This document shows, in pieces, positions 12,165 to 64,000 of a stretch of 64,000 nucleotides of DNA (the first letter of the stretch is position 1; each line of letters starts with the position of its first letter). Source of the stretch: Crossaster papposus. Taxonomy: Eukaryota; Echinodermata; Asteroidea; Velatida; Solasteridae. The DNA lies in contig JBAIAA010000409.1 of NCBI GenBank assembly GCA_037893245.1, positions 859,001 to 923,000 of the forward strand, read 5' to 3'. The notes below the pieces were generated by a model. That model did no database searches. It saw only the letters and a list, made by a program, of their open reading frames with translations, and had not been told where the DNA came from. Made by a program: the position numbers and the translations under genes.

Positions 12165-12746
12165 AATAGAGACATTTCGGACGTTCAAAGTTTAATTCCT
12201 GTAATATCTCCAATATTATTAGAGATAATAATATAGATATCCCTATTAACAATAGAGATATCTCTATTTCTAGTTTATAGAGAGATATCTCTATTAAAAA
12301 TAAAAATACCTCTATTAAAAATAGAGATGTATTATCTATTATTAATATAGATATCTCTATTAACATAGAGATATCTCTATGGGAAATGGAGATATCTCTA
12401 TTATAAATAGAGATAGATATTTCTAGATATCTCTATTTCTAGTTTAATAAAGAAATCTCTGTTAGAAACATAGATATCTCTATTAAAAATAGAGATATCT
12501 CTATTATTTATAGAGATAGGCCTATCTCTATTTCTAGTTTAATAGAGATTAGATATCTCTATTAACAATAGAGATATCTCTATTGGAAATAGAGATATCT
12601 CTATTAGAAATAGAGATAGATATTTCTATTAGAAATAGAGATATCTCTATTTCTAGTTTAATAGAGATATCCCCATTAGAAACAGAGATATCTCTATTAA
12701 AAATAGAGATATCTCTATTATTAATAGAGATATCTATATTTAAGAT
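12165..12746. repeat. Array of palindrome TAGAGATATCTCTA
   Basis: About 580 bases made of the self-complementary word TAGAGATATCTCTA joined by short AT linkers (TTAAAAA, TTATTAA, TTTCTAGTTT), with point variants. Each word can fold on itself, and every sub-region is complementary to every other. Shorter stretches of the same palindrome are found at 39485-39558, 39950-40130 and 47255-47352. The 64- and 69-codon open frames in this array are by-products of the repeat. Confidence 0.92.
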
Positions 12747-14612: not shown

Positions 14613-14847
14613 CACCAAAAAAACCAGATTGGTTGAAAACAACAAAATGATTGGTAGATATGTGTCTAACCAATGCATTGGTAAATTTTAACCAAAATAT
14701 TGGTTATTTTGACAATTTGTTTCTGTTAAAATGACCAATATCATTGGTTATTTTGACAACTATTTTGGTTTAAATTTAGCAATTTCATTGGTTGGACACA
14801 TTATCTACCAATTAGTTGGTTATTTTAACCACTCTGTTTTTAGGGTG
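14613..14847. mobile_element. Short member of the CACTCTAAAAACAG / ATTGGTT family
   Basis: Starts CACCAAAAAAACCAGATTGG and ends TCTGTTTTTAGGGTG, a degenerate version of the terminal inverted repeat of the 35437-36854 element. The interior has several inverted ATTGGTT/AACCAAT words, including TGGTAGATATGTG and its counterpart ACACATTATCTACCA. Non-coding. Confidence 0.65.
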
Positions 14848-14976
14848 TTTCTCGGCATCCATGATTGTAAAACTTCGGGCAGGTCAGTTAAACGATATTT
14901 ACTATGAAAAAACAAACCCCCAAACCGCCCATTCCTGAAAATTCAAGCAATTATGGTGTATCCTACCTTTAACCTT
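14848..14976. mobile_element. Right half of TTAA-family F element (copy F1)
   Basis: From CTCGGCATCCATGATTGTAA through AATTATGGTGTATCCTACCT this matches the right half of the intact F copies at 28650-28993 and 46214-46557. The left half is absent, perhaps replaced with the preceding ATTGGTT element. Two further GGTGTATCCTAT fragments follow at about 15021-15050. Confidence 0.7.
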
Positions 14977-21247: not shown

Positions 21248-22250
21248 GCTGGTGTCTTCGTCTCGTGTCTCTTACTGCTTCTCTCTCTGCCTATCTTAAC
21301 GCCTCTCTGACTGCCTTTCTCACTGCCTCTCCTACTGCCTCTCTTACTGCCTTTTTCACTGCCTCTCTCACTGCCTCTCCGACTGCCTCTCTTACTGCCT
21401 TTCTTACTGCCTCTATGACTGCCTTTCTGACTGCCTCATTGGCTGCCTCTCTGACTGCCTCTCTGGCTGATACTCTTACTGCCTCTCTCATTGCCTCTCT
21501 TACTGCCTCCCTGACTGCCTCCCTGACTGCCTCTCATACTGCCTTTCTTACCGCCTCTCTCACCGCCTCTATGACTGCCTCTCTGACTGCCTCATTGGCT
21601 GCCTCTCTGACTGCCTCTCTGGCTTATACTCTTACTGCCTCTCTCATTGCCTCTCTTACTGCCTCCCTGACTGCCTCCCTGACTGCCTCTCATACTGCCT
21701 CTATTACTGCCTCTCTTACTGCCTTTCTTACTGCCTCTCTCACCGCCTCTATGACTGCCTCTCTGACTGCCTCATTGGCTGCCTCTCTGACTGCCTCTCT
21801 GGCTTATACTTTTACTGCCTCTCTCATTGCCTCTCTTACTGCCTCCCTGACTGCCTCCCTAACTGCCTCTCATACTGCCTCTATTACTGCCTCTCTTACT
21901 GCCTCTCTCACTGCCTCTATGACTGCCTCTTTCACTGCCTCTCTCATTGCCTCTCTGACTGCCTCTCTCATTGCCTCTCTGACTGCCTCTCTCATTGCCT
22001 CTTTTACTGCCTCTCTCATTGCCTCTCTCATTGCCTCTCTTATTGCCTCTCTCACTGCCTCTCTTACTGTCTCTTACTGCCCCTCTCACTGCCTCTATGA
22101 CTGCCTCTCTCACTGCCTCACTTACTGCCTCTCTCACTGCCTCCCTCACTGCCTCTCTGGCTGGCTCTCTGACTGCCCCACTTACTGCCTCTCTCATTGC
22201 CTCTCTCATAGCCTCTCTCACTGCCTCTCTCACTGCCTATCCGACTGCCC
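21248..22250 (+). repeat. 12-bp minisatellite CTGCCTCTCTNA, 1 kb
   Basis: About 80 units of CTGCCTCTCT(G/C/T)A, organised in longer imperfect repeats. Since the unit is a multiple of three and lacks stops, it is open on several frames: plus strand in a 460-codon frame (21124-22506) of Leu-Thr-Ala-Ser tetrapeptides, and minus strand as Arg-Glu-Ala-Val repeats. Openness on both strands, and interruption by ordinary repeat sequence at both ends, argue against a protein. Confidence 0.85.
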
Positions 22251-23285
22251 AACTTGTTACAGTGTTGATTTCTGTATCTTTTATAACTGTCTTGTTTGTT
22301 CAGTCATCCAAGGCAATGGCACAAGGAACCTTATATCATTGGACGAAGAACACTCTAACCTTTTCCACAGACATTTGTCTTTTCTGAAATATTCGGTAGT
22401 TTTGCAACAAAATGAATTTGAAAATAGGTATACTTTTTGTGGTCAAAAGGTTTCGATTTTCAAAAGTCAAATTTATTTGTTCGATATCTCATTGGTAAGC
22501 TCATAAATAATACAATGCTGGAACATTATCAATTCAATTTGAACATCTATTTGTTTAGGGTGCCACACCTAAAAAGCATGAACACACCAACTTTAACAAT
22601 TGTATCAATTACCTCAACAACTATGTTCGTTTTTATTTAATACTAATGGTACACTCCGAATATGCACATCATTGTAAACTTGGTCACGTAAGCCATTATC
22701 GCCTAATCAAAACGTATATAATTTATTTTCGCTTATTTTATAACTGTGACTCCTGCTTTTACTTTTAAAAAAACCTTACGTGGCAAGATCCATAGGGTAA
22801 ACCTTATAACGACTCGTGTTTAACATTGGCATGATATTTATTCAATTACCTCAACAACTATGTTCGTTTTTATTTAATACTAATGGTACACTCCGAATAT
22901 GCACATCATTGTAAACTTGGTCACGTAAGCCATTATCGCCTAATCAAAACGTATATAATTTATTTTCGCTTATTTTATAACTGTGACTCCTGCTTTTACT
23001 TTTAAAAAAACCTTACGTGGCAAGATCCATAGGGTAAACCTTATAACGACTCGTGTTTAACATTGGCATGATATTTATATTTAAACTGATTTAATGAGTG
23101 ATGTGATACGAGCTTAAAATAATATCATACATTACGAAAATCACCTACGAACAGCACAAAAGCTATATGCTAGCTGCGACGATTTTAATTATTTTCTTTG
23201 AATTACCCACACAAAGCGAATTCAGTTGTGTTTTGTGTGAAGTTGTTCCCCTGCAGGCAGGAGCTGTGCAACAACTGCCGTCGCC

Positions 23286-25340
23286 ATGCACTTAAGGTGA
23301 CACTTTTGTGGCTACTTTTGCCTTTAGTAATAGTTGGTCATACTCCAGACAGCAAGATGATGATAGCAGGTACATCATTACGAGTGACGTAGGAAAAGAA
23401 CGTCGTAAAGGAACAACGTGAAATTAAACTATGATCTCTCTTGAGAATAATCATGTTATTACTAAAGGAAGAGATATGCGGCTGTTGATGGCACTTGGTT
23501 GTAAATCAAGACGTTCGACCTCATCTTCTGACATTTACACACCTCTTGTGTATATGACAGGACGGACGAAATTCATTTATTTGGTATAGCCACCATTCAT
23601 GTTAATGCATATACATGTAGCTGGTGTATTCGTCTCGTGTCTGTTACTGCTTCTCTCTCTGCCTATCTTAACGCCTCTCTGACTGCCTTTCTCACTGCCT
23701 CTCCTACTGCCTCTCTTACTGCCTTTTTCACTGCCTCTCTCGCTGCCTCTCCGACTGCCTCTCTTACTGCCTTTCTTACTGCCTCTATGACTGCCTCTCT
23801 GAATGCCTCATTGGCTGCCTCTCTGACTGCCTCTCTGGCTTATACTCTTACTGCCTCTCTCATTGCCTCTCTTACTGCCTCCCTGACTGCCTCCCTGACT
23901 GCCTCTCATACTGCCTCTATTACTGCCTCTCTTACTGCCTTTCTTACTGCCTCTCTCACCGCCTTATTGTATGCACTTAAGGTGACACTTTTGTGGCTAC
24001 TTTTGCCTTTAGTAATAGTTGGTCATACTCCAGACAGCAAGATGATGATAGCAGGTACATCATTACGAGTGACGTAGGAAAAGAACGTCGTAAAGGAACA
24101 ACGGGAAATTAAACTCTGATCTCTCTTGAGAATAATCATGTTATTACTAAAGGAAGAGATATGCGGCTGTTGATGGCACTTGGTTGTAAATCAAGACGTT
24201 CGACCTCATCTTCTGACATTTACACACCTCCTGTGTATATGACAGGACGGACGAAATTCATTTATTTGGTATAGCCACCATTCATGTTAATGCATATACA
24301 TGTAGCTGGTGTATTCGTCTCGTGTCTGTTACTGCTTCTCTCTCTGCCTATCTTAACGCCTCTCTGACTGCCTTTCTCACTGCCTCTCCTACTGCCTCTC
24401 TTACTGCCTTTTTCACTGCCTCTCTCGCTGCCTCTCCGACTGCCTCTCTTACTGCCTTTCTTACTGCCTCTATGACTGCCTCTCTGAATGCCTCATTGGC
24501 TGCCTCTCTGACTGCCTCTCTGGCTTATACTCTTACTGCCTCTCTCATTGCCTCTCTTACTGCCTCCCTGACTGCCTCCCTGACTGCCTCTCATACTGCC
24601 TCTATTACTGCCTCTCTTACTGCCTTTCTTACTGCCTCTCTCACCGCCTTATTGTATGCACTTAAGGTGACACTTTTGTGGCTACTTTTGCCTTTAGTAA
24701 TAGTTGGTCATACTCCAGACAGCAAGATGATGATAGCAGGTACATCATTACGAGTGACGTAGGAAAAGAACGTCGTAAAGGAACAACGGGAAATTAAACT
24801 CTGATCTCTCTTGAGAATAATCATGTTATTACTAAAGGAAGAGATATGCGGCTGTTGATGGCACTTGGTTGTAAATCAAGACGTTCGACCTCATCTTCTG
24901 ACATTTACACACCTCCTGTGTATATGACAGGACGGACGAAATTCATTTATTTGGTATAGCCACCATTCATGTTAATGCATATACATGTAGCTGGTGTATT
25001 CGTCTCGTGTCTGTTACTGCTTCTCACACTGCCTTTCTTAACGCCTATCCGACTGCCTCTCTTACTGCCTCTCTGGCTGCCTGTCTTACTGCCTCTCTGG
25101 CTGCCTCTCTCGCTGCCTCTCTGACTGCCCCTCTTACTGCCTCTCCCAACGCCTCTCTGACTGCCTCTCTGACTGCCTCTCTCACCTCCTCTCTCACTCC
25201 CTTATTGGCTGCCTCTCTGACTGCCTCTCTGGCTGCCTCTCTCACTTCCTCTCTCGCTGCCTCTCTCACTGCCTCATTGGCTGCCTCTCTGGCTGCCTCT
25301 CTCACTGCCTCTCTTACTGCCTCTCCCCTATCTCTCTGAC
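23286..25340 (+). repeat. 685-bp tandem triplication containing the minisatellite
   Basis: The anchor ATGCACTTAAGGTGACACTT occurs at 23286, 23971 and 24656, exactly 685 bases apart. Units 1 and 2 are almost identical, including a frame of 146 codons in each. Unit 3 is identical up to the minisatellite (about 25007) and then carries a different minisatellite variant with more CTGGCTGCCTCT words. Recent unequal exchange is the simplest explanation. Confidence 0.92.
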
Positions 25341-25552
25341 TGCCCAACTTGTCACAGTGCTGGTTTCTGTATCGTTCATAACTGTCTTGTTTGTTCAGTC
25401 ATTCATGGCAATGGCACAATGGACAATATACCATTGGACAGAGGACATTCTAACCTTTCCACAGATATTTGTCTTTTCTGAAATATTCGGTAGTTTTGCA
25501 ATAATATGAATTTAAAAATAGGTATACTTTTTGTGGTCAAAAGGTTTCGAGA

Positions 25553-27318: not shown

Positions 27319-27584
27319 CAGAGACACAGAGACACAGAGACACAGAGACACAGAGACACAGAGACACAGAGACACAGAGACACAGAGACACAGAGACACA
27401 GAGACACAGAGACACAGAGACACAGAGACACAGAGACACAGAGACACAGAGACACAGAGACACAGAGACACAGAGACACAGAGACACAGAGACACAGAGA
27501 CACAGAGACACAGAGACACAGAGACACAGAGACACAGAGACACAGAGACACAGAGACACAGAGACACAGAGACACAGAGACACA
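27319..27584. repeat. Microsatellite (GAGACACA)n
   Basis: About 33 perfect copies of an 8-bp unit over 266 bases with no visible interruptions. Open in several frames on both strands for that reason (for example an Arg-Asp-Thr-Glu-Thr-Gln-Arg-His repeat); not a gene. The perfection suggests recent expansion, or assembly of a true long tract. Confidence 0.97.
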
Positions 27585-28261: not shown

Positions 28262-29530
28262 GATTTCTCGGTCAATTTCGGCAAATGTGTTCAATTTAAT
28301 CACAGCGTCATTCAGTTTCGCGCAAATTTGAATGCTGCTCCAAATCCAGATTCAATTTCATTTTCTGAATACGCAAAAAATAGTCTTGCGTCGCGCAATT
28401 TAAACAAAGGAACCGTCCAAATTAGGAATCAATGCACTTATCAAACAGCAATTCATTTTGCTAAAGAATTTGAATGTCAAACAAATGTGAATGTCTCTAA
28501 ACGAAACCAAACGCCTTAAAAGTAAATTATAACAAAACAATAATTGGCACTATGATCAAAATCGCTTGAATACGTACATTCAAAAACGAATTTAAATGCT
28601 TTTCTTACGAACTTGATCGAGAAAACTATAAATAAGCGACACACATTAAAGGTAGGATACACCATTTGCAGATTTTTAAAAAAAGTACTACCGAATTATT
28701 AAGAGATATCTTACTCATCTGAAAGTAAATGATGATTCTAGGCATCCAGCAAAATGATTGCGCTAGATATCCTGTAATTATTCTGAAAAATTGAATAAAA
28801 AAAACCCACACAAATAACATAAGAATAACTGCTCGACGTCGGTTAAAAACAAACGCTGTTTTTCGTGCTTTTCTCGCCATCCACGATTGTAAAACTTCGG
28901 ATAGGTCAGTTAAACGATATTTACTATAAAATACAACCCCCAAATCCACCCATTCGTGACATTTCAAGCAATTTATAATGGTGTATCCTACCTTTAAATC
29001 TCAACACAGCACACAGGTAAATATCAAGCAACACACACACAATAAATCTGCTATGTGTTCTGTTCACAACAAACACTAAAATGTTGTCTTCAAAAAGATG
29101 TTGATCCTGATATTGTGCATTGTATGGTAATAATTTCACTGCATGTCAAATGTAAGTTCTCAATATCAAACACGTGTCAGGTTAAGCTAATTTTGCTTGT
29201 GTAGCTACTAGCTAATATAGGTTAGTATCAGTACAACCACAAAACGACAGATTATTTTCTTGATCAAGTTCGTAAGAAAAGTACTGCAATTATTGTTTCT
29301 TTAAGCGATTTGGTTCAACGTGACTCTTAATCACTTTCAGAGCGTTCAGTTTCGTTTTAGAGACATTGAAATTCGTTTGCATTGAAATTCGTTTGCAAAT
29401 TGTAATGCTGTTATGACGTATTTTTTGCGAACTCAGAAAACGAAATTGAATGACGATTTAGAGCAACATTAAAATTGGTTCAAAACCGAATGACGCGGGG
29501 ATTAAATTTGCCAAAATTGACAGAGAAAAC
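28262..29530. mobile_element. Foldback element with long inverted arms, F2 nested in its loop
   Basis: The left arm (about 28262-28620) and the right arm (about 29262-29530) are imperfect reverse complements for about 270-360 bases; shared words include GTCAATTT.GGCAAAT, GCGTCATTC, CGCAAAAAATA and TTTTCTTACGAACTTGATC. The outer ends are TTTCTCGGTCAATTTCGG and the complement of CCAAAATTGACAGAGAAAA. The F element at 28650-28993 inserted between the arms. Confidence 0.75.
28650..28993. mobile_element. TTAA-family F element, intact copy F2
   Basis: 344 bp with inverted ends AGGTAGGATACACCATT / AATGGTGTATCCTACCT, flanked by TTAA at 28646-28649 and 28994-28997. TTAA targets are used by piggyBac and Kolobok transposons; the AGG terminus suits Kolobok better, by inference. 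The 113-codon minus-strand frame over it is a by-product. Other copies: 14848-14976 (half), 35059-36859 (split), 46214-46557 (intact), 54856-56972 (split). Confidence 0.9.
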
Positions 29531-31111: not shown

Positions 31112-31261
31112 GACTTAAACTATTGCGTCAACTGTCATCCAGTTCAGTGGACATGAAAAAGCATGCATTCTGGTATGGTGGCCATGTATTGGATGCCTAA
31201 TTTGTATACCCAGCACGATATGTGGCAGAGGGGTACCCCCCTCTTATCTCTATACCTTATA

Positions 31262-33080
31262 CATTGATCCGTCAGATCATGAATCCGTTGCTAACGTCAT
31301 AAATAATCACCTGGCGAGTTTCTCACAAGTACACGAGCCCCTCAATCTTGACAATTTGCCAGCTTACTTACCATCACGTGAGCCACCTCCTCAGGTCCAT
31401 CCCTGGGAAGTTTACAATGAATTAAAGAGAATGTCCGTTAGTAAATCTGGAGGACCCGATAATTTGCCAGCCAAATTGCTCATAGAATTTGCGTATGAGC
31501 TTAGTACACCAGTTACTGAAATAATCAATGCATCGTTTTTTCAATGTAGCGTTCCGGTTCAGTGGAAACAAGCCGACATTGTTCCCATACCGAAACAACT
31601 CCCGCCTACTTTATATAAACTTAGGCCCATCTCTTTGACTCCATTACTGGCAAAAATTGCTGAAGGTTTTATTTGTAAATGGATCATGAACTCTATCCAA
31701 CCCAATGTCGATAAAAGGCAATATGGCAATCAGAAAGGAATCTCCACTACCCATTGCCTGGTTGATGTTTATCATAACCTAGTCTCTGGTGCTTGTGTTC
31801 CAAATAATGTTAGTACCCTTGTGCTCACAGATTTTACTAAAGCCTTTGATTTGGTAAACCATGAAATTGCTGTTGACAAACTGTTGGAGTTGGGTGTATC
31901 GCCTGCTATTGTGCAATGGATTGTTAGTTTCCTAACTGATCGTCAACAAAGGGTTAGGTATAAACAAACATTTTCTGATTGGCATACTCTTTCTGGGGGT
32001 GTGCCCCAAGGTACTAAACTCGGACCTGTTGTATTCCTTGCCTATATTAATAACGCCGTTGACTGTACTCAGAATAAATGCTGGAAATATGTAGATGATC
32101 TCACTCTTAGCGAAAATAGACACATTACTGGTGTAAGCCGGATACAGGCAGATTTAAACAATCTCAATGACTGGGCATTGGCAAACAAAATCCAATTGAA
32201 CCCGTCTAAATGTAACACCATGCAGGTGTACTGTGGGAAAAAAGATCTTCCCTTCGTTCAATATTCCATTTCTAATGTTCATCTTCAACAGGTTCCCAGT
32301 GTGAAGTTGTTAGGTGTTACATTGCAAAACAACTTAAAATGGGATGCCCATGTCATGGAGATTGTTAAAAAAGCCAACATGAAACTTTTCATGCTTAGGA
32401 AACTCAAAATGACAGGGTTAACTGACAAAGAGCTTGTGACCGTGTATAAAGGTTATATTAGGCCTGTTATAGAATATGCTGCCCCATTGTGGCACTCGGG
32501 CATCACCACAACTCTTTCTAACCGACTGGAATCAGTACAAAGAAGAGTGTGCCACATTATATTGGGTCAAAAATATACTGGATATAAACAAGCTTTGACC
32601 AGTTTTGGTTTGGAACCCTTGGACATGCGCAGAACCTCCCTTTGTAACAAATTTGCAATGAAATCCTTTAACTCAAGCAAATTCAATGAGTGGTTTGTGA
32701 AATCTAAAAGCACCCATACTATGAATCTCCGGTCCAAACGATTACTTCATGTTCCATCTTGTAAAACAACCCGTTTTTATAATAGCCCAGTCCCATATCT
32801 CAACAGACTTGTTAATAGCGTACTCAGTTTACTCCCACCAGCCCAATGAAATTACCTGTTCTTTTTAGCATAGTATATGTATTGTTTTTCTGTACAATTT
32901 TTTTGATATGTATACTATATTTTTTGTACTTACAATTTTCTTTGTTTTTACCGCTTACTCTTTGTGATTTTAACCTCATCTAATTTTTTATTGAAATTTG
33001 TATGTAAACTGACTTGTAATTCAGCCTGTGGGCTGCTATAAGCAGTGTTTTAATAAACCACAAATAATAATAATAATAAT
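31262..33080 (+). mobile_element. 5'-truncated non-LTR retrotransposon (CR1/L2-like)
   Basis: The element contains only the RT half of the usual endonuclease-RT ORF, then a 3' untranslated region with an AATAAA signal (33052) and a tail of AAT repeats (33062-33080). Truncation at the 5' end and a simple-repeat 3' tail are typical products of target-primed reverse transcription. It lies in the loop of a foldback element. A target duplication was not certain. Confidence 0.85.
31263..32849 (+). CDS. Reverse transcriptase, 5'-truncated ORF of a non-LTR retrotransposon
   Basis: The protein would make cDNA from the element's RNA at a nicked chromosomal target. The open frame starts at the truncation point (about codon Ile-Asp-Pro-Ser-Asp, 31263) and has no natural start; a TTG at 31356 or any internal ATG is not meaningful. 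RT palm blocks are present in order: SKSGGPDNLPAKLL, QWKQADIVPIPK, LRPISLTPLLAKIAEGF, the first catalytic Asp in VLTDFTKAFDLVNHE, GGVPQGTKLGP, and the YVDD box in CWKYVDDLTL, followed by LNPSKCNTMQV, VKLLGVTL, the thumb region with YIRPVIEYAAPLWH, and a C-terminal extension. The N-terminal APE-type endonuclease is missing. No stop or frameshift interrupts it over about 528 codons, so the insertion is probably young, though dead on arrival. The YVDD and GGVPQGT motifs place it in the jockey/CR1/L2 supergroup; the exact clade is not settled. Confidence 0.85.
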   Translation: MDPSDHESVANVINNHLASFSQVHEPLNLDNLPAYLPSREPPPQVHPWEVYNELKRMSVSKSGGPDNLPAKLLIEFAYELSTPVTEIINASFFQCSVPVQWKQADIVPIPKQLPPTLYKLRPISLTPLLAKIAEGFICKWIMNSIQPNVDKRQYGNQKGISTTHCLVDVYHNLVSGACVPNNVSTLVLTDFTKAFDLVNHEIAVDKLLELGVSPAIVQWIVSFLTDRQQRVRYKQTFSDWHTLSGGVPQGTKLGPVVFLAYINNAVDCTQNKCWKYVDDLTLSENRHITGVSRIQADLNNLNDWALANKIQLNPSKCNTMQVYCGKKDLPFVQYSISNVHLQQVPSVKLLGVTLQNNLKWDAHVMEIVKKANMKLFMLRKLKMTGLTDKELVTVYKGYIRPVIEYAAPLWHSGITTTLSNRLESVQRRVCHIILGQKYTGYKQALTSFGLEPLDMRRTSLCNKFAMKSFNSSKFNEWFVKSKSTHTMNLRSKRLLHVPSCKTTRFYNSPVPYLNRLVNSVLSLLPPAQ

Positions 33081-34740: not shown

Positions 34741-35058
34741 TATATTTTTTATAGGATTCCTAGTGTCCAGTGTAAGGCATAAACCTCAGATTCCATTGTC
34801 TAAATAAGCAATCACATCTTGCTGGCTTGTGAAGATCATTGCCGCATAATTGTGAAACACCTAACATGCTCCTTTTTTATGTCTAAATAATTTACTTGTA
34901 TCAGCAATGTTCAAATCTATACAATATTCACGCCAGCTCGAAGTTGGATTGGGATTCGGGAAAAAGCTGCGATCAACTTTGAAACGCCAAATATTATAAT
35001 AAACTTGCAATTGTTCAGTATTTCGAGATTGAAATCCGATTTCTACGTTTAACTTTAA
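34741..35058. other. Unassigned sequence
   Basis: No gene or repeat family recognised. Confidence 0.35.
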
Positions 35059-36859
35059 AGGTAGGATACACCATTGGTAATTGCCTAAAATATCAAGAAT
35101 GGGTGGATTTGGGGGGTTGTATTTTATAGTGAATATCGTTTAACTGACATGTCCGAAGTTTTACAATCATGGATGCTTATAAAAGCAACAAAAACGGCGT
35201 TCGTTTTCAACCGGCGGCGGGCAGTGGTTCTTATGTTGTTCTTGTTTTTGTCGCGATCGCCGTCTGGCGATCGTTATTTTTTTCTTTTTTATTCGATTTT
35301 TCGGAACAATTACAGGATATCTAGCTCAATCATTTTTTCTGGATGCTAAAAAATCATTATTTACTTTCAAATAAGTAGGATATATCTTAATAATTCGGTA
35401 GTAACAATTTAAGATGTCTGCAAATGGTGTATCCTACACTCTAAAAACAGATTGGTTGAAAATAACCAATATATTGGTCGATTTCAACCAATCCAGTTGG
35501 TAGATATGTGGATAACCAAAATATTGGTTAAAATAACCAATATGACATTGGTTACCTATTTAACCAATCCATATTGGTTATAAAACCAACCAATGCAATG
35601 TTGGTTAATTTAACCAATCCACAATGGTAGGACTCCAACCAATTTGTATTGGTTACCACGTAACCAATCCATATTGGTTATAGCACTAACCAATACATAA
35701 TGGTAGGGCTGCAACCAATTCATATTGGTTAACACGCAACCAATTGCATTTGTTATAACAAATGCAAAAATACATTATTGGTTAATTCAACCAATTTATA
35801 ATGGTTAGGCTACAACCAATACTATTGGTTGTTTTTATGTATTGGTTCCTACGTGGACAAATTACGTAATTAAATAATACCAATGGAATTAACTTATTAC
35901 ACACTGCAAATACACATAAATACAATAATAACCTATTACCTACTGAACACTTACTACACACTTAGCTACTGCCGTTGTTAGTTTTATAGTTCGCTTTTTT
36001 TGTCCACGACGAAGTCACAGCTAGTTTTTTATGAATAATGTCAAAATTTGAATACAAAGGAAATGTAATGTGAATTTTTCACTATGTTTGTACAAAAATC
36101 TAAATTCAATCATGGAATCGTTTGAATAATTACATATTAAGGCCAAAAAAGTGCATTTTGGAATAAAATACTACAATTTAACATCGACTATTGTCAAAAC
36201 AAATGTTCTCACTTCTGATTGGTCAGTTGCTGTATACAAGCTCAACCAATATGACTGGTTGAAGGCCAACCAATCTATTGGTTATGAATAACCAATAGAT
36301 TGGTTAATACCTTGGTTTCAAGCTCAACCAATATGACTGGTTGAAGGACAACCAACATATTGGTTATTAATGACCAATAGATTGGTTGATATATAGTTGC
36401 AAGCTCAACCAATATAACTGGTTGAAGGACAACCAATATATTGGTTATGAATAACCAATAGATTGGTTAATACAATTGGTTACAAGCTCAACCAATATGA
36501 CTGGTTGAAGGACAACCAACATATTGGTTATGAATAACCAATAGATTGGTTAATACCTTGGTTACAAGCTCAACCAATATGACTGGTTGAAGGACAACCA
36601 ACATATTGGTTATGAATAACCAATATATTGGTTAATACCTTGGTTACAAGCTCAACCAATATGACTGGTTGAAGGACAACCAATATATTGGTTATAAATG
36701 ACCAATAGATTGGTTGATACCGTCAACCAATATGACTGGTTGACGGACAACCAACGCATTGGTTACGCTTTAACCAACACATTGGTTAAAAACAACCAAT
36801 ATGGGGTCAACCAATTAGATTGGTTGGTCTTTTAACCAATCTGTTTTTAGAGTGTACCT
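35059..36859. mobile_element. TTAA-family F element, copy F3, split
   Basis: Begins AGGTAGGATACACCATTGG after TTAA (35055-35058). It runs, in opposite orientation to F2, to GGTGTATCCTA at 35436, is interrupted by the element 35437-36854, and finishes CCT at 36859 followed by TTAA (36860-36863). Internal words AATGGGTGGATTTGGGGGGT and GTTTAACTGACATGTCCGAA match F2. Confidence 0.9.
35437..36854. mobile_element. Full-length ATTGGTT element, TA target, nested in F3
   Basis: Ends CACTCTAAAAACAGATTGGT and its complement (to 36854). TA on both sides (35435-35436, 36855-36856) is a duplication of the TA within the terminal GTATCCTACCT of F3. The 1.4 kb interior is saturated with ATTGGTT/AACCAAT; the long period is about 80 bases, such as CTCAACCAATATGACTGGTT, ATTGGTTATGAATAACCAAT. 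A unique core (35980-36235) is shared with 17207-17475. No transposase is encoded. Confidence 0.9.
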
Positions 36860-39484: not shown

Positions 39485-40130
39485 CATAAATAGAGATATC
39501 TCTATTAATAGTACTTTAATAGAGATATCTCTATTTTTAATAGAGATATCTCTATTAAAGGGATCGTATACGTTTGGTAATTGGAACCCACTGTTTATTT
39601 CAATCCTATATAGTTATAAATATATACCATAAAACTAACCTGTACAAATTTCATTTCAAAAGGTGGTAGCGATTTTGAGATATTGCCAAAATTCTGGAGC
39701 GGTTATGTCCACGCAGGAAGAATAATCTGCATTGGAATACACAGTCTGAGAAACGTCACTGCAGTAACGCTTCTCAGATTCAATTTGTTTGTGATAAAAA
39801 GTGATATCTTTTTCCATAACCGCAGTACTTCGAAGTGAAAAGTTTCTAAAAATGCATTATACTATCCAAAGCTGCTGTACTTCTTACCAAGTAAGTTTTT
39901 ATTGCCATTAATTTTTGGAGTAATTACCAAACGTATACGATCCCTTTAAACTAGAAATAGTGATATATCTATTTTTTATTAGAGATATCTCTATTGTTAA
40001 TAATAATAGAGATATCTTTATAGAGATATCTCTATTATTAATATTAGAGATATCGTTTCTAAAGGAATTAAATGTTAACTTTGTACGTCCAAAATAAAGA
40101 TATCTCTATTATTAATAGAGATATCTCTAT
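39485..40130. repeat. TAGAGATATCTCTA palindromes split by a TTAA element
   Basis: AGAGATATCTCTATT words at 39490-39558 and 39950-40130 flank the element at 39559-39945, which used a TTAA within the linker of the array. Same palindrome family as 12165-12746. Confidence 0.85.
39559..39945. mobile_element. TTAA-family K element, copy 1
   Basis: 387 bp, ends AGGGATCGTATACGTTTGGT and ACCAAACGTATACGATCCCT (perfect complement), flanked by TTAA (39555-39558, 39946-39949). Internal shared words: AGGTGGTAGCGATTTTGAGA, AATCTGCATTGGAATACACA, CTTACCAAGTAAGTTTTTAT. Copies 2 and 3 are at 53232-53618 and 59323-59715. Kolobok- or piggyBac-like by target; non-coding. Confidence 0.93.
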
Positions 40131-40676
40131 TTTGTAATAAATATGGGTCCAATGTCAACGTTTCCGTCCGATTTCACCACTTGTTCGTTCCATTTCAATC
40201 CATTTGGAGAGTCGCGTACAGTTGGACAAATCCGTTTCGTTTCATTTTGTTTTCGTGCAAGAAAATATAATTTCTTTTGTTGGTTTTGATTTCGCCAGAG
40301 TATATTGGCGAACTTGCATGACGAGAAAATAACTTTTGCGGTAGAATTAGGAGTCAATTTAATTTAGCACTTCGTATTGGCGATATGAACGTTTAGTTTG
40401 ATTCAAACAAATTTATTTGATTCGCTACATTCATATTGAAGTTGACATTGTTAACACAATCTTGTTCCGTGGTACGGGAACCACACACGTGTTGAGCGAT
40501 AGTTAATATGGGGATCGCCAAGACACTGTGTGGGCAGCAGAATGTTCTTTCTTTTACAAGGGTCAGTTTGCAGGAGAACGTTCCTGGAAATGCAGGGATA
40601 TGAAATACACTTGGTGGCGCTATTGCAGAAGTTATTGCCGTATGTGAGGCGTTTATTTTTCAATAAAGAGACATCG
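40131..40676. other. Unassigned sequence
   Basis: No gene or repeat family recognised. Short frames on both strands without motifs. Confidence 0.35.
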
Positions 40677-46175: not shown

Positions 46176-46213
46176 TGTTTAAAAAGCCTCAAACATAACC
46201 CAGCCAGTTTTAA

Positions 46214-46557
46214 AGGTAGGATACATCATTTGCACATATCGAAAATATTTACTACCGAATTATAAAGAAATATCTTACTCATTTGAAAGTAAATAATGAT
46301 TCTAGGCATCGAGCAAAATGATTGTGCTAGATAGGCCTATCCTGTAATTATTCCGAAAATATAATTTTATAAAGACAATTTCGCAAAAAACCAAAAATAA
46401 TAACTGCTCTACGCCGGTTAAAAAGAAAACGCTGTTTTTGAAAACCATGATTGTAAAACTTCGGACAAGTCAGTTAAACAGTCTTTACTGTAAAATATAA
46501 CTCCCAAATCCACCCATTCATGATAATTCAAGCAATTACCAATGGCATATCCTACCT
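46214..46557. mobile_element. TTAA-family F element, intact copy F4, with empty-site paralogue
   Basis: 344 bp, ends AGGTAGGATACATCATTTGC and GCATATCCTACCT (a few changes), flanked by TTAA at 46210-46213 and 46558-46561. Left flank CAGCCAGTT plus right flank ACGC.TTTTCACCGAAAAAG equals the uninterrupted sequence at 46004-46040, where a single TTAA is present. Confidence 0.95.
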
Positions 46558-46852
46558 TTAAACGCTTTTTCACCGAAAAAGAGTTTACATTTTGACTCCT
46601 AATAAGTCGAGTGGTTGACATGAAACCTCCCACAGCATGCGTACAACCGATGGGTTCGTGTCCCAATTACAGTATCACGCGTCTATCGCGCGTCTATCAT
46701 GCGCGCGTATATACCCATATAAGGGCACGTCCTCAAAACGCGAGGTTACTGTTGAACAAATTCGTTGGAAATTGCAAAATATTTGACTTGTTTTGACTTT
46801 TTGACCGAAATATAATTATATGTGGGAATTAAACACATAGTTATCCGGTTTT

Positions 46853-47254: not shown

Positions 47255-47352
47255 CAGAGATATCTCTAATTAACGGCATATCTCTAAATAATTAAAGATA
47301 TATCTAATTCATTTAGAGATATCTCTAATTCATTTAGAGATATCTCTAAATA
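47255..47352. repeat. TAGAGATATCTCTA-type palindromes
   Basis: About six AGAGATATCTCTAA words with AATTCATTT linkers. Same core word as 12165-12746 with a different linker. Confidence 0.8.
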
Positions 47353-47439
47353 ACTCTAAAATATCGTTGCGTATATGGGCTCGTCATAGACGAATCATGT
47401 GGGTCTACACTGTAAAAAAGTTGGCTAAAAAAGTAGGTT

Positions 47440-51163: not shown

Positions 51164-51791
51164 GCCAATTCCATAAAAGCATTCTAAGCCTATTGGTTGC
51201 TAACTTCCTTTCTATCTCTAGTTACTTGCTAAATATATTCCATAAAACCATTATACGCTTAGCAAGGTTCCTAGTTGCTTGCTAAAATTATAATATGTTT
51301 GGGGTATGTCTAAATCCTTAGCACCATTCTAAGTCACTTTCAATCTTTCATCTTTTGGGAATTTGTATTGACATCCTTATGCGCAGAGTCAAGGACAGAT
51401 TTTCCTGAGTCGAGTAATTATAAGGCTTCTTTTATCTTTTTTTATTTGAAACACTCTCTGAATTAGCCATTTCTGAAACATGTGCTTAGGCCGATACAAA
51501 TGTACATACCCTAAATAGGGTACAGAGGAATACATTGACAATACAACCCACAGCATGACCTGATTTGACCTCTTTCCCTATTGTTAACTCAAACTGACCA
51601 TGTACTTTGGCGATTATGCAAACCCAACGCCATTCTAGCAAGCTGTAAGCAAGCAACTAGTAAGAATGTTTCATAGAATGGTGTTATGGAATGCGATTTA
51701 GTTGATTGCTAGCAAGCAACCAACTAGGCATTTGGAATCTTGCTAAAACCTAGTAATATACTAAGTTAGAATGCTTTTATGGAATTGGGCC
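51164..51791. mobile_element. MITE family E (CCAATTCCATAAAAGCATTCTAAG)
   Basis: Ends GCCAATTCCATAAAAGCATT and AATGCTTTTATGGAATTGGG. Near both ends, TTGCTAGC/TTGCTAAG words recur. Family D copy 2 abuts it directly at the right. No target duplication could be read because of the junction. Confidence 0.8.
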
Positions 51792-52564: not shown

Positions 52565-52917
52565 GCGTCACCACGAAGTAACACTAATGTCATGGCTGAA
52601 TCGCACCCCTTTCTGGCGTTTTCACGAAGTAACGCAAAGCCCATAGCTAATACACACGGATAGCGTCACTTCGTGAAAACTCGATATGCGGGGCCATTTT
52701 TGGCGTTTTCACGAAGTAACACAAAGCCCATAGCTAATACACGCGGATAGCGTCACTTCGTGAAAACTCGTAAACGGCGTATCTGATTTGTGAGTTTTCA
52801 CGAAGTGACGCTATCCGCGTGTATTACTTTTAGCTATGGGCTTTGCGTTACTTCGTGAAAACGCCAGAAAGGGGTCGCGCGTATCACGTGACATTAGTGT
52901 TACTTCGTGGTGACGGT
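52565..52917. repeat. Palindromic element with triple TCACTTCGTGAAAAC motif
   Basis: Outer arms CACCACGAAGTAACACTAAT (about 52569) and ATTAGTGTTACTTCGTGGTG. Inside, GTTTTCACGAAGTAAC.CAAAG, CCCATAGCTAATACAC.CGG and ATAGCGTCACTTCGTGAAAA occur twice directly and once inverted. The whole region is one large imperfect palindrome centred near 52775, prone to cruciform formation. Confidence 0.88.
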
Positions 52918-54681: not shown

Positions 54682-55266
54682 TTCTCATGTGCCTAAATGT
54701 TTCACATAATCCTGTAATTTGAACTTTTAGGAGTATTAAAATGATACAACATAAATTGTTGGTGGCCAGAAATAACTTCATTTATGGCTGGTTCAGGTAT
54801 ATCTGACTACTTTGTTTAGCGATTCTCGTGAATTCGTTCTTTATCCTGTTATTAAAGGTAGTATATATTATTTGCAGATATCGAAAATATTTACTACCGA
54901 ATTATTAAGAAATATCTTACTCATTTGAAAGTAAATAATGATTCTAGGCATCCAGCAAAATGGTTGCGCTAGATATCCTGTAATTATTCCGAAAAATATA
55001 ATTTTATAAAGAAAAATTCGCGATCGCCGTACGGCGATCGCGAAAAAACGATCAACTGCCCAAGAACTGCCCAACGCCGGTTAAAAAAACAAACGCTGTT
55101 GTTCGTGCTTTTCTCGGCATCCATGATTGTAAAACTCCGGACAGGTCAGTTAAACAATATTTACTACTAGGCGGTCACCCGGGGTTTGTCGGTTCTCGGG
55201 TTTGTAGCTACTTCCCTGGATGGATGGGGATTGTGGATACATGTTGACCGAGTTTAAGCACGATCC

Positions 55267-56839
55267 GACCAACTTCAAAAAGGTGACCCCTAGATGACCT
55301 TTGACCTCGTACGCTCTAGCGAATGCAAACTGGTTCTTGCGGGGACCGAGCCGGACCCACCCACCGAGTTTGAACGCCGCACGACCCCGGGAAGGGGACG
55401 AAAAAGCGCGACCAACTTCAAAAAGGTGACCCCTAGATGACCTTTGACCTCGTACGCTCTAGCGAATGCAAACTGGTTCTTGCGGGGACCGAGCCGGACC
55501 CACCCACCGAGTTTGAACGCCGCACGACCCCGGGAAGGGGACGAAAAAGCGCGACCAACTTCAAAAAGGTGACCCCTAGATGACCTTTGACCTCGTACGC
55601 TCTAGCGAATGCAAACTGGTTCTTGCGGGGACCGAGCCGGACCCACCCACCGAGTTTGAACGCCGCACGACCCCGGGAAGGGGACGAAAAAGCGCGACCA
55701 ACTTCAAAAAGGTGACCCCTAGATGACCTTTGACCTCGTACGCTCTAGCGAATGCAAACTGGTTCTTGCGGGGACCGAGCCGGACCCACCCACCGAGTTT
55801 GAACGCCGCACGACCCCGGGAAGGGGACGAAAAAGCGCGACCAACTTCAAAAAGGTGACCCCTAGATGACCTTTGACCTCGTACGCTCTAGCGAATGCAA
55901 ACTGGTTCTTGCGGGGACCGAGCCGGACCCACCCACCGAGTTTGAACGCCGCACGACCCCGGGAAGGGGACGAAAAAGCGCGACCAACTTCAAAAAGGTG
56001 ACCCCTAGATGACCTTTGACCTCGTACGCTCTAGCGAATGCAAACTGGTTCTTGCGGGGACCGAGCCGGACCCACCCACCGAGTTTGAACGCCGCACGAC
56101 CCCGGGAAGGGGACGAAAAAGCGCGACCAACTTCAAAAAAGTGACCCCTAGATGACCTTTGACCTCGTACGCTCTAGCGAATGCAAACTGGTTCTTGCGG
56201 GGACCGAGCCGGACCCACCCACCGAGTTTGAACGCCGCACGACCCCGGGAAGGGGACGAAAAAGCGCGACCAACTTCAAAAAGGTGACCCCTAGATGACC
56301 TTTGACCTCGTACGCTCTAGCGAATGCAAACTGGTTCTTGCGGGGACCGAGCCGGACCCACCCACCGAGTTTGAACGCCGCACGACCCCGGGAAGGGGAC
56401 GAAAAAGCGCGACCAACTTCAAAAAGGTGACCCCTAGATGACCTTTGACCTCGTACGCTCTAGCGAATGCAAACTGGTTCTTGCGGGGACCGAGCCGGAC
56501 CCACCCACCGAGTTTGAACGCCGCACGACCCCGGGAAGGGGACGAAAAAGCGCGACCAACTTCAAAAAGGTGACCCCTAGATGACCTTTGACCTCGTACG
56601 CTCCAGCGAATGCAAACTGGTTCTTGCGGGGACCGAGCCGGACCCACCCACCGAGTTTGAACGCCGCACGACCCCGGGAAGGGGACGAAAAAGCGCGCAC
56701 AGACTTCAAAAAGGTGACCCCTAGATGACCTTTGACCTCGCACGCCCTAGCGAATGCAAACTGGTTCTTGCGGGGACCGAGCCGGACCCACCCACCGAGT
56801 TTGAACGCCGCACGACCCCGGGAAGGGGACGAAAAAGCG
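55267..56839 (+). repeat. Eleven tandem 143-bp units
   Basis: GACCAACTTCAAAAAGGTGA recurs every 143 bases from 55267 (55410, 55553 ... 56554), the eleventh unit starting with CACAGACTTCAAAAAGG. Units are almost identical, with differences concentrated in the last two. As 143 is not a multiple of three and the unit has few stops, long minus-strand frames (136 and 150 codons) cross several units in shifting phase; they are not genes. Confidence 0.97.
55284..55307 (-). promoter_or_regulatory. DR5 plus DR1 nuclear-receptor half-sites, repeated in each unit
   Basis: On the minus strand each 143-bp unit reads AGGTCA-A-AGGTCA (a perfect DR1), and its second half-site continues as AGGTCA-TCTAG-GGGTCA (a DR5). 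DR1 is bound by RXR homodimers, PPAR/RXR, HNF4 and COUP-TF-type receptors, and DR5 by RAR/RXR. The coordinates are for the first unit; the same three half-sites recur in all 11 units at 143-base steps. Binding is inferred from the motif only. Confidence 0.6.
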
Positions 56840-57212
56840 CGCACAGACAGACAGACACACAGACAGACAGAGAGTAGCGTATTATTATATAGATCAAAAA
56901 CACCCCCCCCCCCAAAAAAAAAATCTACCCATTAATGATAATTCAAGCAATTACCAATGGTGTATCATACCTTTAAAACAGGCCACGTATGTACATGTTT
57001 AGCCAAAGTGAACAATTTCGAAGGAGGATATAAATATAAATGTCACGATGCAGTCACGTTCCTGGAACTAACTACATTCTGGAAAAAGACTATACGGTTA
57101 TAATATTAGGTATTACTGTAGAGTCACGATTCGTTTGACGGATGCGTTTTGGGTAAAACCCTGTTGTCTCATGCAAGAGAAGTTGAATAATGATTCATCG
57201 AAAAACAACTGT

Positions 57213-59715: not shown

Positions 59716-60899
59716 TTAAAGCCTAGATCGTTATGCGCTGCAAGATAGGTAGGAACGTCAGTATTTTCCATTTTACACGTATATAACTCAGTGATGCTAT
59801 TTCGCCTTGACTCATGTCAATGCCTTACGCGCAAAGCAACTTCCTGTTTACTCTTACAAAATCCGGTAACTTTGTGGTATTCATCGACTACAATACTTTC
59901 AATAATGCTGCATTCCTTCTGTGTTTTATGGCACGATATATTGTTTGTATTTAGTTTCTTCGGGTTCGGGCGTTTTGCGAGCCCAAGGCTGAAGGCATAC
60001 GAAACCCATGAGCCATGTCGTTCTGTTGTAAGCCCGCTATTTAGTGCGCAAATTAAATATTTGTACACGATTCTATACCATGGCATTTAACAAAAACACT
60101 TGCCCGCACCCACAGCATAAAATGCGCCTGGCTGAAACACACGAGGCCAGCAGTGGCTTAGAAAACCTTTCTTGTTTGGTATAATACAAAAAGTCAATTT
60201 GTGATAAACATAATGACAATTCTTGTTCATGTACATGTAGATATCATGGACTATGGGCCAGCGGATTTTTGTAATCCACTTTTCAAAATCGAATTTTATA
60301 TTTAAAAAACAAATGTATTGATTGATTGATTGATTTGTTTTTATTACTTTTTTAAAAACATATTTATTAATTTATTTATTATTATATATTTTGTTATTTT
60401 AGTTTTTCTTTTCTTTTTTCTACTTTCAATCACTTATCCTGATAATTGGAATTGGTTTCGCGAGAAAACTAAGCCCGAGCAAAAAAAACCATACCACCGC
60501 CCATACTGGGCGCTGCATGGGTAGGTCTGATGCACTTTGAGCTCTGATTGGATAGATTTTGTGTGACCTGTGAACTGGAGGTCATCAGTTCCGCGGCTCA
60601 GCTGCGCTGCATACAATTTGAAAGGTCATGGTACGCTTCCCAGAATACCGTGCATTTTCTGCACAGAATTAGTTGAATTAAATTAAATTAAAAATGGTTT
60701 TAAAAAAAATCGCAGCCTCCAGGCTGAATTGCATGATTTGTACAAAAATATTAAAGCAACAGTTAACATTAACATTCACATCAATAGAGATACACACACA
60801 AATGAACTATAGCACCAACATGTTAAAACAGGACTGAATTATTAAAATAAAGTGAAAGTGCAGATAAAAACTGAATACGCTCTATAAATAAATACGCTG
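59716..60899. other. Unassigned sequence, AT-rich patch
   Basis: No gene recognised. 60300-60420 is strongly T-rich with GATTGATTGATTGAT. Overlapping 89- and 99-codon frames on opposite strands at 59791-60090 lack motifs. Confidence 0.35.
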
Positions 60900-61930: not shown

Positions 61931-62231
61931 GCTAATTTAGTTATCTTAAAGCTCATACATTTGTCTTCATGTTACTTGATGTCGCGCCGTAAGGTTGCAC
62001 TCAACACATTCGCTTCTTAAATCACTTATTTTCTCGTTATATTCGAGTGATTTTATTTCAATGGACTGATCAGCGGTTTACTAGACCAACCAGGATCTAC
62101 TGGACTAAGTTGGTTGTGTTTCAAACAGACAGCGAGTAACTTTATTCCCGTTTTTCGGAATTCGACTTTTCGTTTTTACACTACATTTGCTATTCCCTGT
62201 GTGGAAATCCGTCCGTCCATTGCACATACAG
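61931..62231 (+). other. Probable 5' leader of the retrotransposon at 62232
   Basis: No repeat limits are visible, but the endonuclease-RT ORF starts at 62232, so its untranslated leader and possible internal promoter must lie in or before this stretch. No first ORF (ORF1) was recognised here. Confidence 0.4.
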
Positions 62232-64000
62232 ATGGCTGGTTCCAGACTATGTACCATCCTATTGTGGCTACTACTTCTATTGTTGAGTGCCGACATTGTC
62301 CTGAAGTACAATGCAAGTGATCTAAATGACTTTAATAAGGACAACACCAGACTGCCACCTACCACTTATCACCGACTCAGAGAGCTTGGTATTTGTGCTG
62401 TCAAGCCAACACGGAGGGGCCACAGGTCTTGGGCTAAACAACAAAAGAAACCTATCTTAGTCTTGGCTCTCCGTCATGAATCCAGAAAAACAACTAACTG
62501 TGGACAAACCTGTGCAAATCCAGGAAACTTGATTGCCATATCCCAGCACCAAACTAAAACCACTTCATGGAGTAACTTTGCACTCTGGAACTCTCGTTCA
62601 CTAAAACGCAAGACGGCTTCAATCACTGACATCATTATTTCTCAAGGTATTGACATCTGTGCAATTACTGAAACCTGGCTATGTGAAGATCATCGTGACA
62701 ACCGTGCCCTTGCTGATCTCAATAATACATTACCTGACTTTCAGATCTTTCAAAGACCTCGATTAAACAGAGATGGTGGGGGTGTGCTTGTCTGCCTAAA
62801 AAAGAGTTTTCATGTGTCTCAAAACGAAACTAAAACATTTGACTCGTTTGAGTACATGGACTTGTCTATTACTGCCAGTTCAAACGCACCTCTCCGACTG
62901 TTTGTGATATATAGACCGCAGAGATTATTGTATAAGACCCCAACAGCTACAAGATTTATGCAGGAATTTTCCATCTTGCTGGAACTCATAATTTCCGATG
63001 CCAGCCATGTCTTGATTGCGGGTGATTTCAACTTCCATGTGGACAACACGTCTGATAGAGATGCATCAATTTTTAACGATCTGCTTGATTCTGTTGGATT
63101 GAAGCAACATGTATCCACTCCAACACACCGTGATGGCCACACTTTGGATCTCCTACTGTCAAGGTCTTCAGATGATTTTATTTCCCAAGTATCAACATCT
63201 CATCATCTACCCTCTGATCACGCGGCTGTGACCTGCCAGGTAAATATTGGTCGTCCTGGTGCAGTGAAAGTTAATGTCGCGATGCGTAACTTCCGTGACA
63301 TCGATATCAACAATTTTCGAAATGATATTCTAATCTCTCCGATTTACACCCATTCGTCTTCCGATCTGGACTCCTTCGTCGCTCAGTATGATCTCACCCT
63401 CAGAAATCTGCTTGACTTGCATGTGCCTCTGATAAAGCGTACTGTAAGAGCTCGCCCAAATGCACCTTGGTTCGGCCCTGCTATCCAGTCTGCCAAACAA
63501 GAGTTACGTCGTCACGAGCGGCGTTGGAAATCATCCAAACTAGAATTTCACAAGCAAATTCTTAGAGATCAGTCAAATTGCTACAATCAGCTGGTTGTAA
63601 CAACCAAAACAGCCTTCCACAAAGAAGAACTTGAACATTGTAATTCAAAGCGTCTTTTTCAAGTAGTGGGTAGGATGAGCATGCCTGCATCACCCAAATC
63701 ACTCCCATCGAGTTCGTCGTCTGATGAGCCGTTAGCCTATCGTTTCGCTAACTTGTTCACCTCAAAAGTCACCACCTTGAGAAATGACCTCGACAACTCA
63801 GCTCCATCTCCCTCTAGCCTGGTGCAGGATGAGCAATGCAATACTGCAACTCTTGGTTGTTTTGAAGTTCTTTCGCTCGACGAAGTCAAGAAATTGATAA
63901 TGGGCCCCAAGTCTAAGTCTTGCAGGCTTGATCCAATCCCAACCTGGTTGTTGAAAAGTTGCTTGGATGAACTTGCACCAACCATCACTGACATCATCAA
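62232..64000 (+). CDS. Endonuclease-reverse transcriptase of a CR1/L2-like retrotransposon (partial, runs off window)
   Basis: The ATG at 62232 opens 589 uninterrupted codons to the window end. Residues 1-20 are a hydrophobic leucine stretch (MAGSRLCTILLWLLLLLLSA) followed by Asp-Ile-Val-Leu. This resembles the 2A/signal-type N-termini known from CR1-clade elements of sea urchin and amphioxus, but the terminal Asn-Pro-Gly/Pro of 2A peptides is absent. From about residue 130 an APE-type endonuclease follows: LWNSRSLKRK, ITETWL, RDGGGVLV, VIYRPQ, IAGDFNFHVD, THRDGHTLDLLL, and the catalytic SDHAAV. The endonuclease nicks the chromosomal target, and the RT copies the element RNA there. After a linker (APWFGPAIQSAKQELRRHER) the RT begins with SLDEVKKLIMGPKSKSC, RLDPIPTWLLKSCLDEL; the palm with its catalytic aspartates lies beyond 64000. 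The stretch seen has no frameshift or stop, so the copy may be young or active. An older minus-strand RT relic lies just upstream. Confidence 0.9.
   Translation, partial: MAGSRLCTILLWLLLLLLSADIVLKYNASDLNDFNKDNTRLPPTTYHRLRELGICAVKPTRRGHRSWAKQQKKPILVLALRHESRKTTNCGQTCANPGNLIAISQHQTKTTSWSNFALWNSRSLKRKTASITDIIISQGIDICAITETWLCEDHRDNRALADLNNTLPDFQIFQRPRLNRDGGGVLVCLKKSFHVSQNETKTFDSFEYMDLSITASSNAPLRLFVIYRPQRLLYKTPTATRFMQEFSILLELIISDASHVLIAGDFNFHVDNTSDRDASIFNDLLDSVGLKQHVSTPTHRDGHTLDLLLSRSSDDFISQVSTSHHLPSDHAAVTCQVNIGRPGAVKVNVAMRNFRDIDINNFRNDILISPIYTHSSSDLDSFVAQYDLTLRNLLDLHVPLIKRTVRARPNAPWFGPAIQSAKQELRRHERRWKSSKLEFHKQILRDQSNCYNQLVVTTKTAFHKEELEHCNSKRLFQVVGRMSMPASPKSLPSSSSSDEPLAYRFANLFTSKVTTLRNDLDNSAPSPSSLVQDEQCNTATLGCFEVLSLDEVKKLIMGPKSKSCRLDPIPTWLLKSCLDELAPTITDII

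Follow-up and report, generated by a model that had tools for sequence, protein, structure and literature searches.

The tandem array at the centre of this analysis forms the central part of an insertion of 1,727 bp that interrupts one copy of a MITE-like repeat and is absent from the four other copies of that repeat in the window (the whole 64-kb stretch of DNA that was analysed). The insertion is probably a non-autonomous Helitron lodged in an older MITE-like element and carrying an expanded satellite core, and the nuclear-receptor half-sites within this core are most likely passenger sequence with the potential to bind nuclear receptors. According to this reading, a non-autonomous Helitron would have inserted by rolling-circle transposition between A and T of the older element without target-site duplication, the 143-bp core unit would later have expanded to eleven near-identical copies by tandem duplication and recombination, and the DR1/DR5 half-sites, as part of the unit, would have been multiplied along with it.

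The insertion and its host element

The insertion occupies positions 55167-56893, with a one-base ambiguity in the placement of its boundaries, and the element reads on the minus strand, as do the parts listed here. In this direction it consists of a TC start, a (CTGT)n microsatellite, eleven units, a 105-bp right flank and a CTAG end, and it opens with TCTATATAATAATACGC. The 5' terminus TCTATATAATAATA (56880-56893), which starts with TC, is the sole exact copy of this string in the window. It is followed by the (CTGT)n microsatellite (56843-56870, or to 56871 in the Tandem Repeats Finder output; element positions 24-51), one unit of which reads GTGT, and by the central array (55272-56841; 11 x 143 bp), with a GC content of 0.589 and a CpG observed/expected ratio of 1.14 (0.90 for the window). 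The right flank extends from the array to the 3' end (55167-55271) and includes the 3' terminus GGGTGACCGCCTAG (55167-55180), which ends in CTAG and is followed by a host T. The insert is GC-rich within an AT-rich region.

The host element extends from 54851 to 56977 on the plus strand, its ends being degenerate and approximate since they were placed by motif. Related copies that do not contain the insert are located at 28646-28997 (BLAST match 28694-28998), 46209-46562 (BLAST match 46258-46562), 35054-35445 on the minus strand (BLAST match 35395-35054) and, as a partial copy, 14831-14972; the family in the window thus comprises five copies, one of them partial and one split by the insertion. 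The host flanks share 75-88% (left) and 84-91% (right) identity with these four copies by BLAST, and the left and right host parts, which are 1.75 kb apart in the split copy, lie only 15-23 bases apart in the empty ones. Excision of 55167-56893 restores TTTACTA|T as it occurs in the empty copies and leaves no target duplication. Once joined, the flanks can be aligned across the excision point with each of the four empty copies, which read TTTACTAT, TTTACTGT, TTCACTAT and TTTACTAT at the insertion site (ACTA|T in three of them and ACTG|T in one); immediately to the right of the junction a single host base differs, and the C/A run there exceeds that of the empty copies by 11-12 bases. The three longer copies, the ones tested, each possess terminal inverted repeats (15-23 bp, TTAAAGGTAGGATACACCATT type), which identify the host as a MITE-like element; in the split copy itself BLAST found none. 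The split copy also contains an internal perfect palindrome, TTCGCGATCGCCGTACGGCGATCGCGAA, and a related palindrome is present in the 35 kb copy.

A 5' TC, a 3' CTRR and A/T neighbours are described as marks of Helitrons (PMC4344730), and Helitron insertion is reported to proceed without target duplication (PMC7492417). The insertion has all of these features, and the probability of finding TC and CTAG ends together with A and T neighbours is about 1e-4, as calculated from the window's own frequencies with two boundary placements allowed. Helitrons typically have a stem-loop shortly before the 3' end, and the candidate in the present element (ACCCG/CGGGT, a 5-bp stem and a 15-nt loop, ending 10 nt before the terminus) is weak: depending on which of six lengths between 30 and 60 nt is taken, 18-70% of 300 shuffles fold equally well or better. 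As to subterminal inverted repeats, no inverted match longer than 6 nt exists between the flanks, a length equalled by 311 of 2000 shuffles, in a comparison of the 23-nt left flank with the 105-nt right flank that considered exact matches and could miss diverged repeats. Helitron families are multi-copy, with an autonomous Rep/helicase partner; within the 64-kb window, neither the unit nor the right flank nor either terminus recurs outside this insertion, the best BLAST match of the right flank elsewhere in the window being 14 bp long and not significant (E 0.23).

The preliminary description placed the array in a retroposon-like insertion. That it lies in an insertion resembling a mobile element is borne out; the retroposon part of the claim is not, given the Helitron-type ends and the missing target-site duplication. 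In the retroposon case the insert would be a SINE or the tail of a LINE, with an ACAG tail and a multiplied 3' region, and both the ACAG run that follows the array on the plus strand, which resembles a simple-repeat tail, and the GC-rich composition of the insert in its AT-rich surroundings would suit it. The run, however, ends 22-23 nt before the insert's end, target-site duplication is absent at the mapped boundaries, and an exact-word comparison of the wider flanks (10 nt or more) yielded just two shared words, an 11-mer and a separate 10-mer, neither of them at the junctions. Patterns for the A- and B-boxes were unmatched on both strands over 55160-55559, where the only trace of a B-box is its 5-base core GGTTC, present three times on the plus strand, and neither Rfam nor a tRNA search matched. 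As this alternative would also turn the combination of TC, CTAG and A|T into a coincidence of about 1e-4, it is very improbable and was rejected. An affiliation with the Helentron/HINE branch (pearl, DINE-1, Cg_HINE) instead of the canonical Helitrons is unlikely as well, although the order of parts (a 4-bp microsatellite in the left flank, satellite-like repeats in the centre and then a short right flank) is that described for Cg_HINE (PMC7492417). HINEs are also reported to cause no target duplication and to prefer T-rich sites (PMC4067079), and on the host minus strand GTGTTTTTGA stands just before the insert, with a T run two bases away. Against this affiliation, T nucleotides are said to flank HINE insertions (PMC4067079) while the site here is A|T, their subterminal inverted repeats measure 11-15 bp (PMC4067079, PMC7492417) while the best inverted match here has 6 nt, and the ends of the present element are TC and CTAG.

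Two further origins were considered for the array and discarded. No counterpart of a structural RNA turned up among tRNAs or in Rfam, searched at gathering score across the window and with E values up to 10 across 55150-55570. A coding array was suggested by overlapping minus-strand open frames of 102-165 aa, which overlap because 143 is not divisible by 3; each of the six frames holds 10 to 26 stops over 55200-56950, and the minus-strand frames 56434-56931 and 55150-55458 gave no Pfam match above cut-off (the former gave two matches below it, E 0.03-0.05). A search of phages and pattern scans of viral contigs and prokaryote genome contigs revealed no relatives, a result that says little because an animal transposon is not expected there.

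The window contains several other repeats. Pfam was run on 19 distinct ORFs drawn from overlapping lists of 31 and 69, and no host gene was recognised among them; the only matches above cut-off were to LINE proteins, namely a reverse transcriptase with an ALKBH8_N match (E 4e-5) in the ORF at 31119-32849 (+) and an Exo_endo_phos endonuclease in the ORF at 62109-63998 (+), which runs off the window. These LINE frames and the window's CpG observed/expected ratio of 0.90, which speaks against a vertebrate, suggest an invertebrate animal source. Short tandem repeats of the palindrome ATAGAGATATCTCTAT occur at 12226-12741, 39515-39556 and 39975-40141 and, in looser form, at 47278-47365, and a dispersed palindromic repeat of the ACCAATATATTGGT type at 14691-14793, 35521-35745 and 36235-36754 (both groups related by eye), the latter type including an 82-bp tandem array of 5.9 copies. 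Several arrays with a 12-bp unit of the TCTCTCACTGCC type lie within 21268-25344; the blocks at 23640-23964 and 24325-24649 have equal Tandem Repeats Finder scores, and identical translations come from the ORFs that cover them (23532-24077 and 24217-24762). The 8-mer CAGAGACA forms a perfect array at 27319-27584 (33.2 copies, 100% matches). At 22605-23078 a 237-bp segment is perfectly duplicated in tandem, which suggests either that the event is very recent or that it is an artefact of assembly. Dense nested inverted repeats on CGTTTTCACGAAGTAACGC at 52565-52915, up to 46 nt long with 100% complementarity, give this segment the appearance of a foldback element.

Repeat units and growth of the array

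Tandem Repeats Finder reports the array at 55266-56841 with a period of 143, 11.0 copies and 99% matches. When unit starts are anchored on ACTTCAAAAA[AG]GTGACC, eleven units are obtained, starting at 55272, 55415 and so on to 56703; nine of the ten spacings are 143 and the remaining one is 144. Taking unit 2 as the reference, units 1, 3-6, 8 and 9 are identical to it, unit 7 carries a single change, and so does unit 10, whose 3' junction is also altered, and unit 11 has two changes and the same altered junction as unit 10. Units 1-9 thus differ by a single base in total, and the array as a whole contains four substitutions outside the junctions.

The junctions from unit 1 to unit 10 consist of GCGCG joined to ACCAACTTC, and at the border between the right flank and unit 1 the sequence reads CCG and then ACCAACTTC. 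The junction between units 10 and 11 is of another kind (GCGCGCACAGA-CTTC) and repeats the start of the ACAG run located beyond unit 11. Two different joins, each with about two shared bases, suggest that tandem duplication took place twice, after which repeated slippage or unequal exchange involving the first type of join would have produced units 1-9. The near identity of these units, set against the 75-81% identity between the left flank of the split host copy and the three longer copies, fits a recent growth of the array in an old host.

Regarding the source of the unit, it is doubtful that part of it derives from the 3' terminus of the element, in which case the GGGTCA half-site would be a relic of a transposon end. 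Each unit contains an inverted GGTGACC(-)CCTAG that includes this half-site and matches the terminal 13 nt at 12 identical bases with one gap, a score reached by 4 of 3000 resamplings; this length was, however, chosen after the match had been seen, and the score is reached by 7, 72, 293 and 523 of 3000 resamplings when the terminal segment is lengthened to 14, 20, 30 and 40 nt, respectively. The BLAST E value of the match is 0.38. The inverted GGTGACC-CCTAG could reflect how the unit arose, or it could have no significance.

Receptor-like half-sites within the array

The string TGACCCCTAGATGACCTTTGACCT was found eleven times, once in each unit, and reads AGGTCA-A-AGGTCA-TCTAG-GGGTCA on the minus strand. 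Scored as RGKTCA direct repeats, the units each contain a DR1 and a DR5 that have the middle half-site in common (11/11), and all 33 half-sites of the array lie on the minus strand, none on the plus strand, so that they read AGGTCA on the element's own reading strand. The order and spacing of DR1 and DR5 claimed for every 143-bp unit by the preliminary description were therefore recovered throughout, with one unit spacing of 144, and its counts of 33 half-sites and an eleven-fold array were reproduced. The triple half-site blocks are 24 bp long; the first is located at 55284-55307, blocks 2-6 start at 55427, 55570, 55713, 55856 and 55999, and blocks 7-11 at 56142, 56285, 56428, 56571 and 56715 (all minus strand). 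Elsewhere in the window, RGKTCA occurs 99 times outside the array (1.59 per kb), and DR0-DR8 pairs occur twice in the 62.3 kb outside the insertion (a DR1 at 60564 and a DR4 at 51556).

The geometry within a unit is not due to chance. When the unit was resampled with a first-order Markov chain, 126 of 100,000 simulated units contained a DR1, 146 a DR5 and only 1 the two sharing a half-site, in either order, a figure to be read in the knowledge that the geometry was selected after being seen. Since the eleven copies are one amplified sequence, they represent one rare event and not thirty-three. None of the four substitutions outside the junctions falls in the 18 half-site positions, an outcome expected in 58% of cases if they were placed at random.

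Because the array is an internal repeat of a Helitron-like element inserted in an older transposon, the half-sites are most likely passengers. That the array acts as a receptor platform (for RXR heterodimers, HNF4 or COUP-TF), be it an enhancer, a silencer or a decoy, is improbable from the sequence features at hand. Such a role would agree with the match of the sites to the RGKTCA DR1 and DR5 consensus, with the rarity of the shared-site geometry (1 of 100,000 resampled units) and with the binding of RAR to the primate Alu-DR2 (PMC1785376) and of HNF4alpha to primate Alu (PMC3252374). It is opposed by the sharing of the middle half-site between DR1 and DR5, which allows one of two dimers per unit at a time, and by the failure to recognise a host gene among the 19 ORFs run through Pfam. 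The "very strong" potential platform of the preliminary description is accordingly overstated, as the array could hold at most 11 dimers and not 22. The decoy function that was also proposed is unlikely for a single locus: at the background density of two DR pairs per 62.3 kb, a genome of hundreds of Mb, as in animals, would contain thousands of them. For HNF4alpha, about 225,000 dimers per hepatocyte nucleus have been estimated, a pool that 7,000-46,000 accessible Alu sites are argued to affect little, while sinks could matter if site accessibility rises or receptor falls (PMC3252374).

A more elaborate and highly improbable function is that of a three-site switch pivoting on one RXR at the shared middle half-site. 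On DR1, RXR-RAR is reported to bind with RAR 5' and RXR 3' and to repress, and on DR5 to bind with the opposite polarity and to activate (PMC11376212). Both arrangements would put RXR on the middle half-site, which makes a switch conceivable in which RAR would choose between a repressing and an activating partner half-site. If this were true, retinoid modules tunable by copy number would be spread through a genome by a Helitron whose array varies in repeat number. A Helitron with a satellite core could multiply a ready-made transcription-factor motif, as duplication of the unit turns it into an array, and transposition could carry the array elsewhere. Other copies, if they exist, would offer a natural experiment on whether arrays of this kind attract receptors or merely look like their sites. 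Interest in the array remains modest unless the family is numerous and the half-sites are conserved.

Comparison with known elements

Half-sites carried and multiplied by a transposable element, as in the present case, have been reported for the Alu-DR2 sites of RAR and the HNF4alpha sites of Alu (PMC1785376, PMC3252374), and the idea of repeat-borne sites as receptor sinks has already been published (PMC3252374). Alu elements, however, are retroposons dispersed in vast numbers for which receptor binding was measured, whereas here one Helitron-like insert carries a tandem array of putative sites. The cNRE (complex Nuclear Receptor Element) is similar to the present unit in combining three nuclear-receptor hexads close together as one module; it is, in contrast, a single 32-bp promoter module with tested function, and its authors exclude a transposable-element origin (PMC10995137). 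Among the literature matches listed, no title or abstract opening pairs a Helitron satellite with receptor sites, and neither motif string occurs.

With respect to the structure of the element, Helitron-superfamily elements of the Helentron type from oyster are reported to contain central tandem satellite-like repeats and 4-bp microsatellites (PMC7492417). Cg_HINE, pearl and DINE-1 share with the insertion a microsatellite and a central satellite-like array between flanks, the central repeat being about 160 bp long in pearl as compared with 143 bp here and the arrays of pearl reaching up to six repeats as compared with eleven; they differ in their T-rich targets and subterminal repeats, as opposed to A|T and TC...CTAG (PMC7492417, PMC4067079, PMC5139131). 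The Hel-2 Helitrons of Lepidoptera have a 5' TC, a 3' CTAG and A/T flanks, as does the present element, together with a variable (CTGT)n in the 5' part, downstream of the 5' subterminal inverted repeat, which is matched by the (CTGT)n at element positions 24-51 (PMC4344730). The 3' hairpin and the subterminal inverted repeats are not convincing here by comparison with Hel-2, and the likeness to Hel-2, for which a 250-bp consensus has been published, is one of described features; the available portion of the Hel-2 description names no 143-bp receptor-like array (PMC4344730). As it stands, the insertion is one more instance, clearly delimited, of a kind of element already known.
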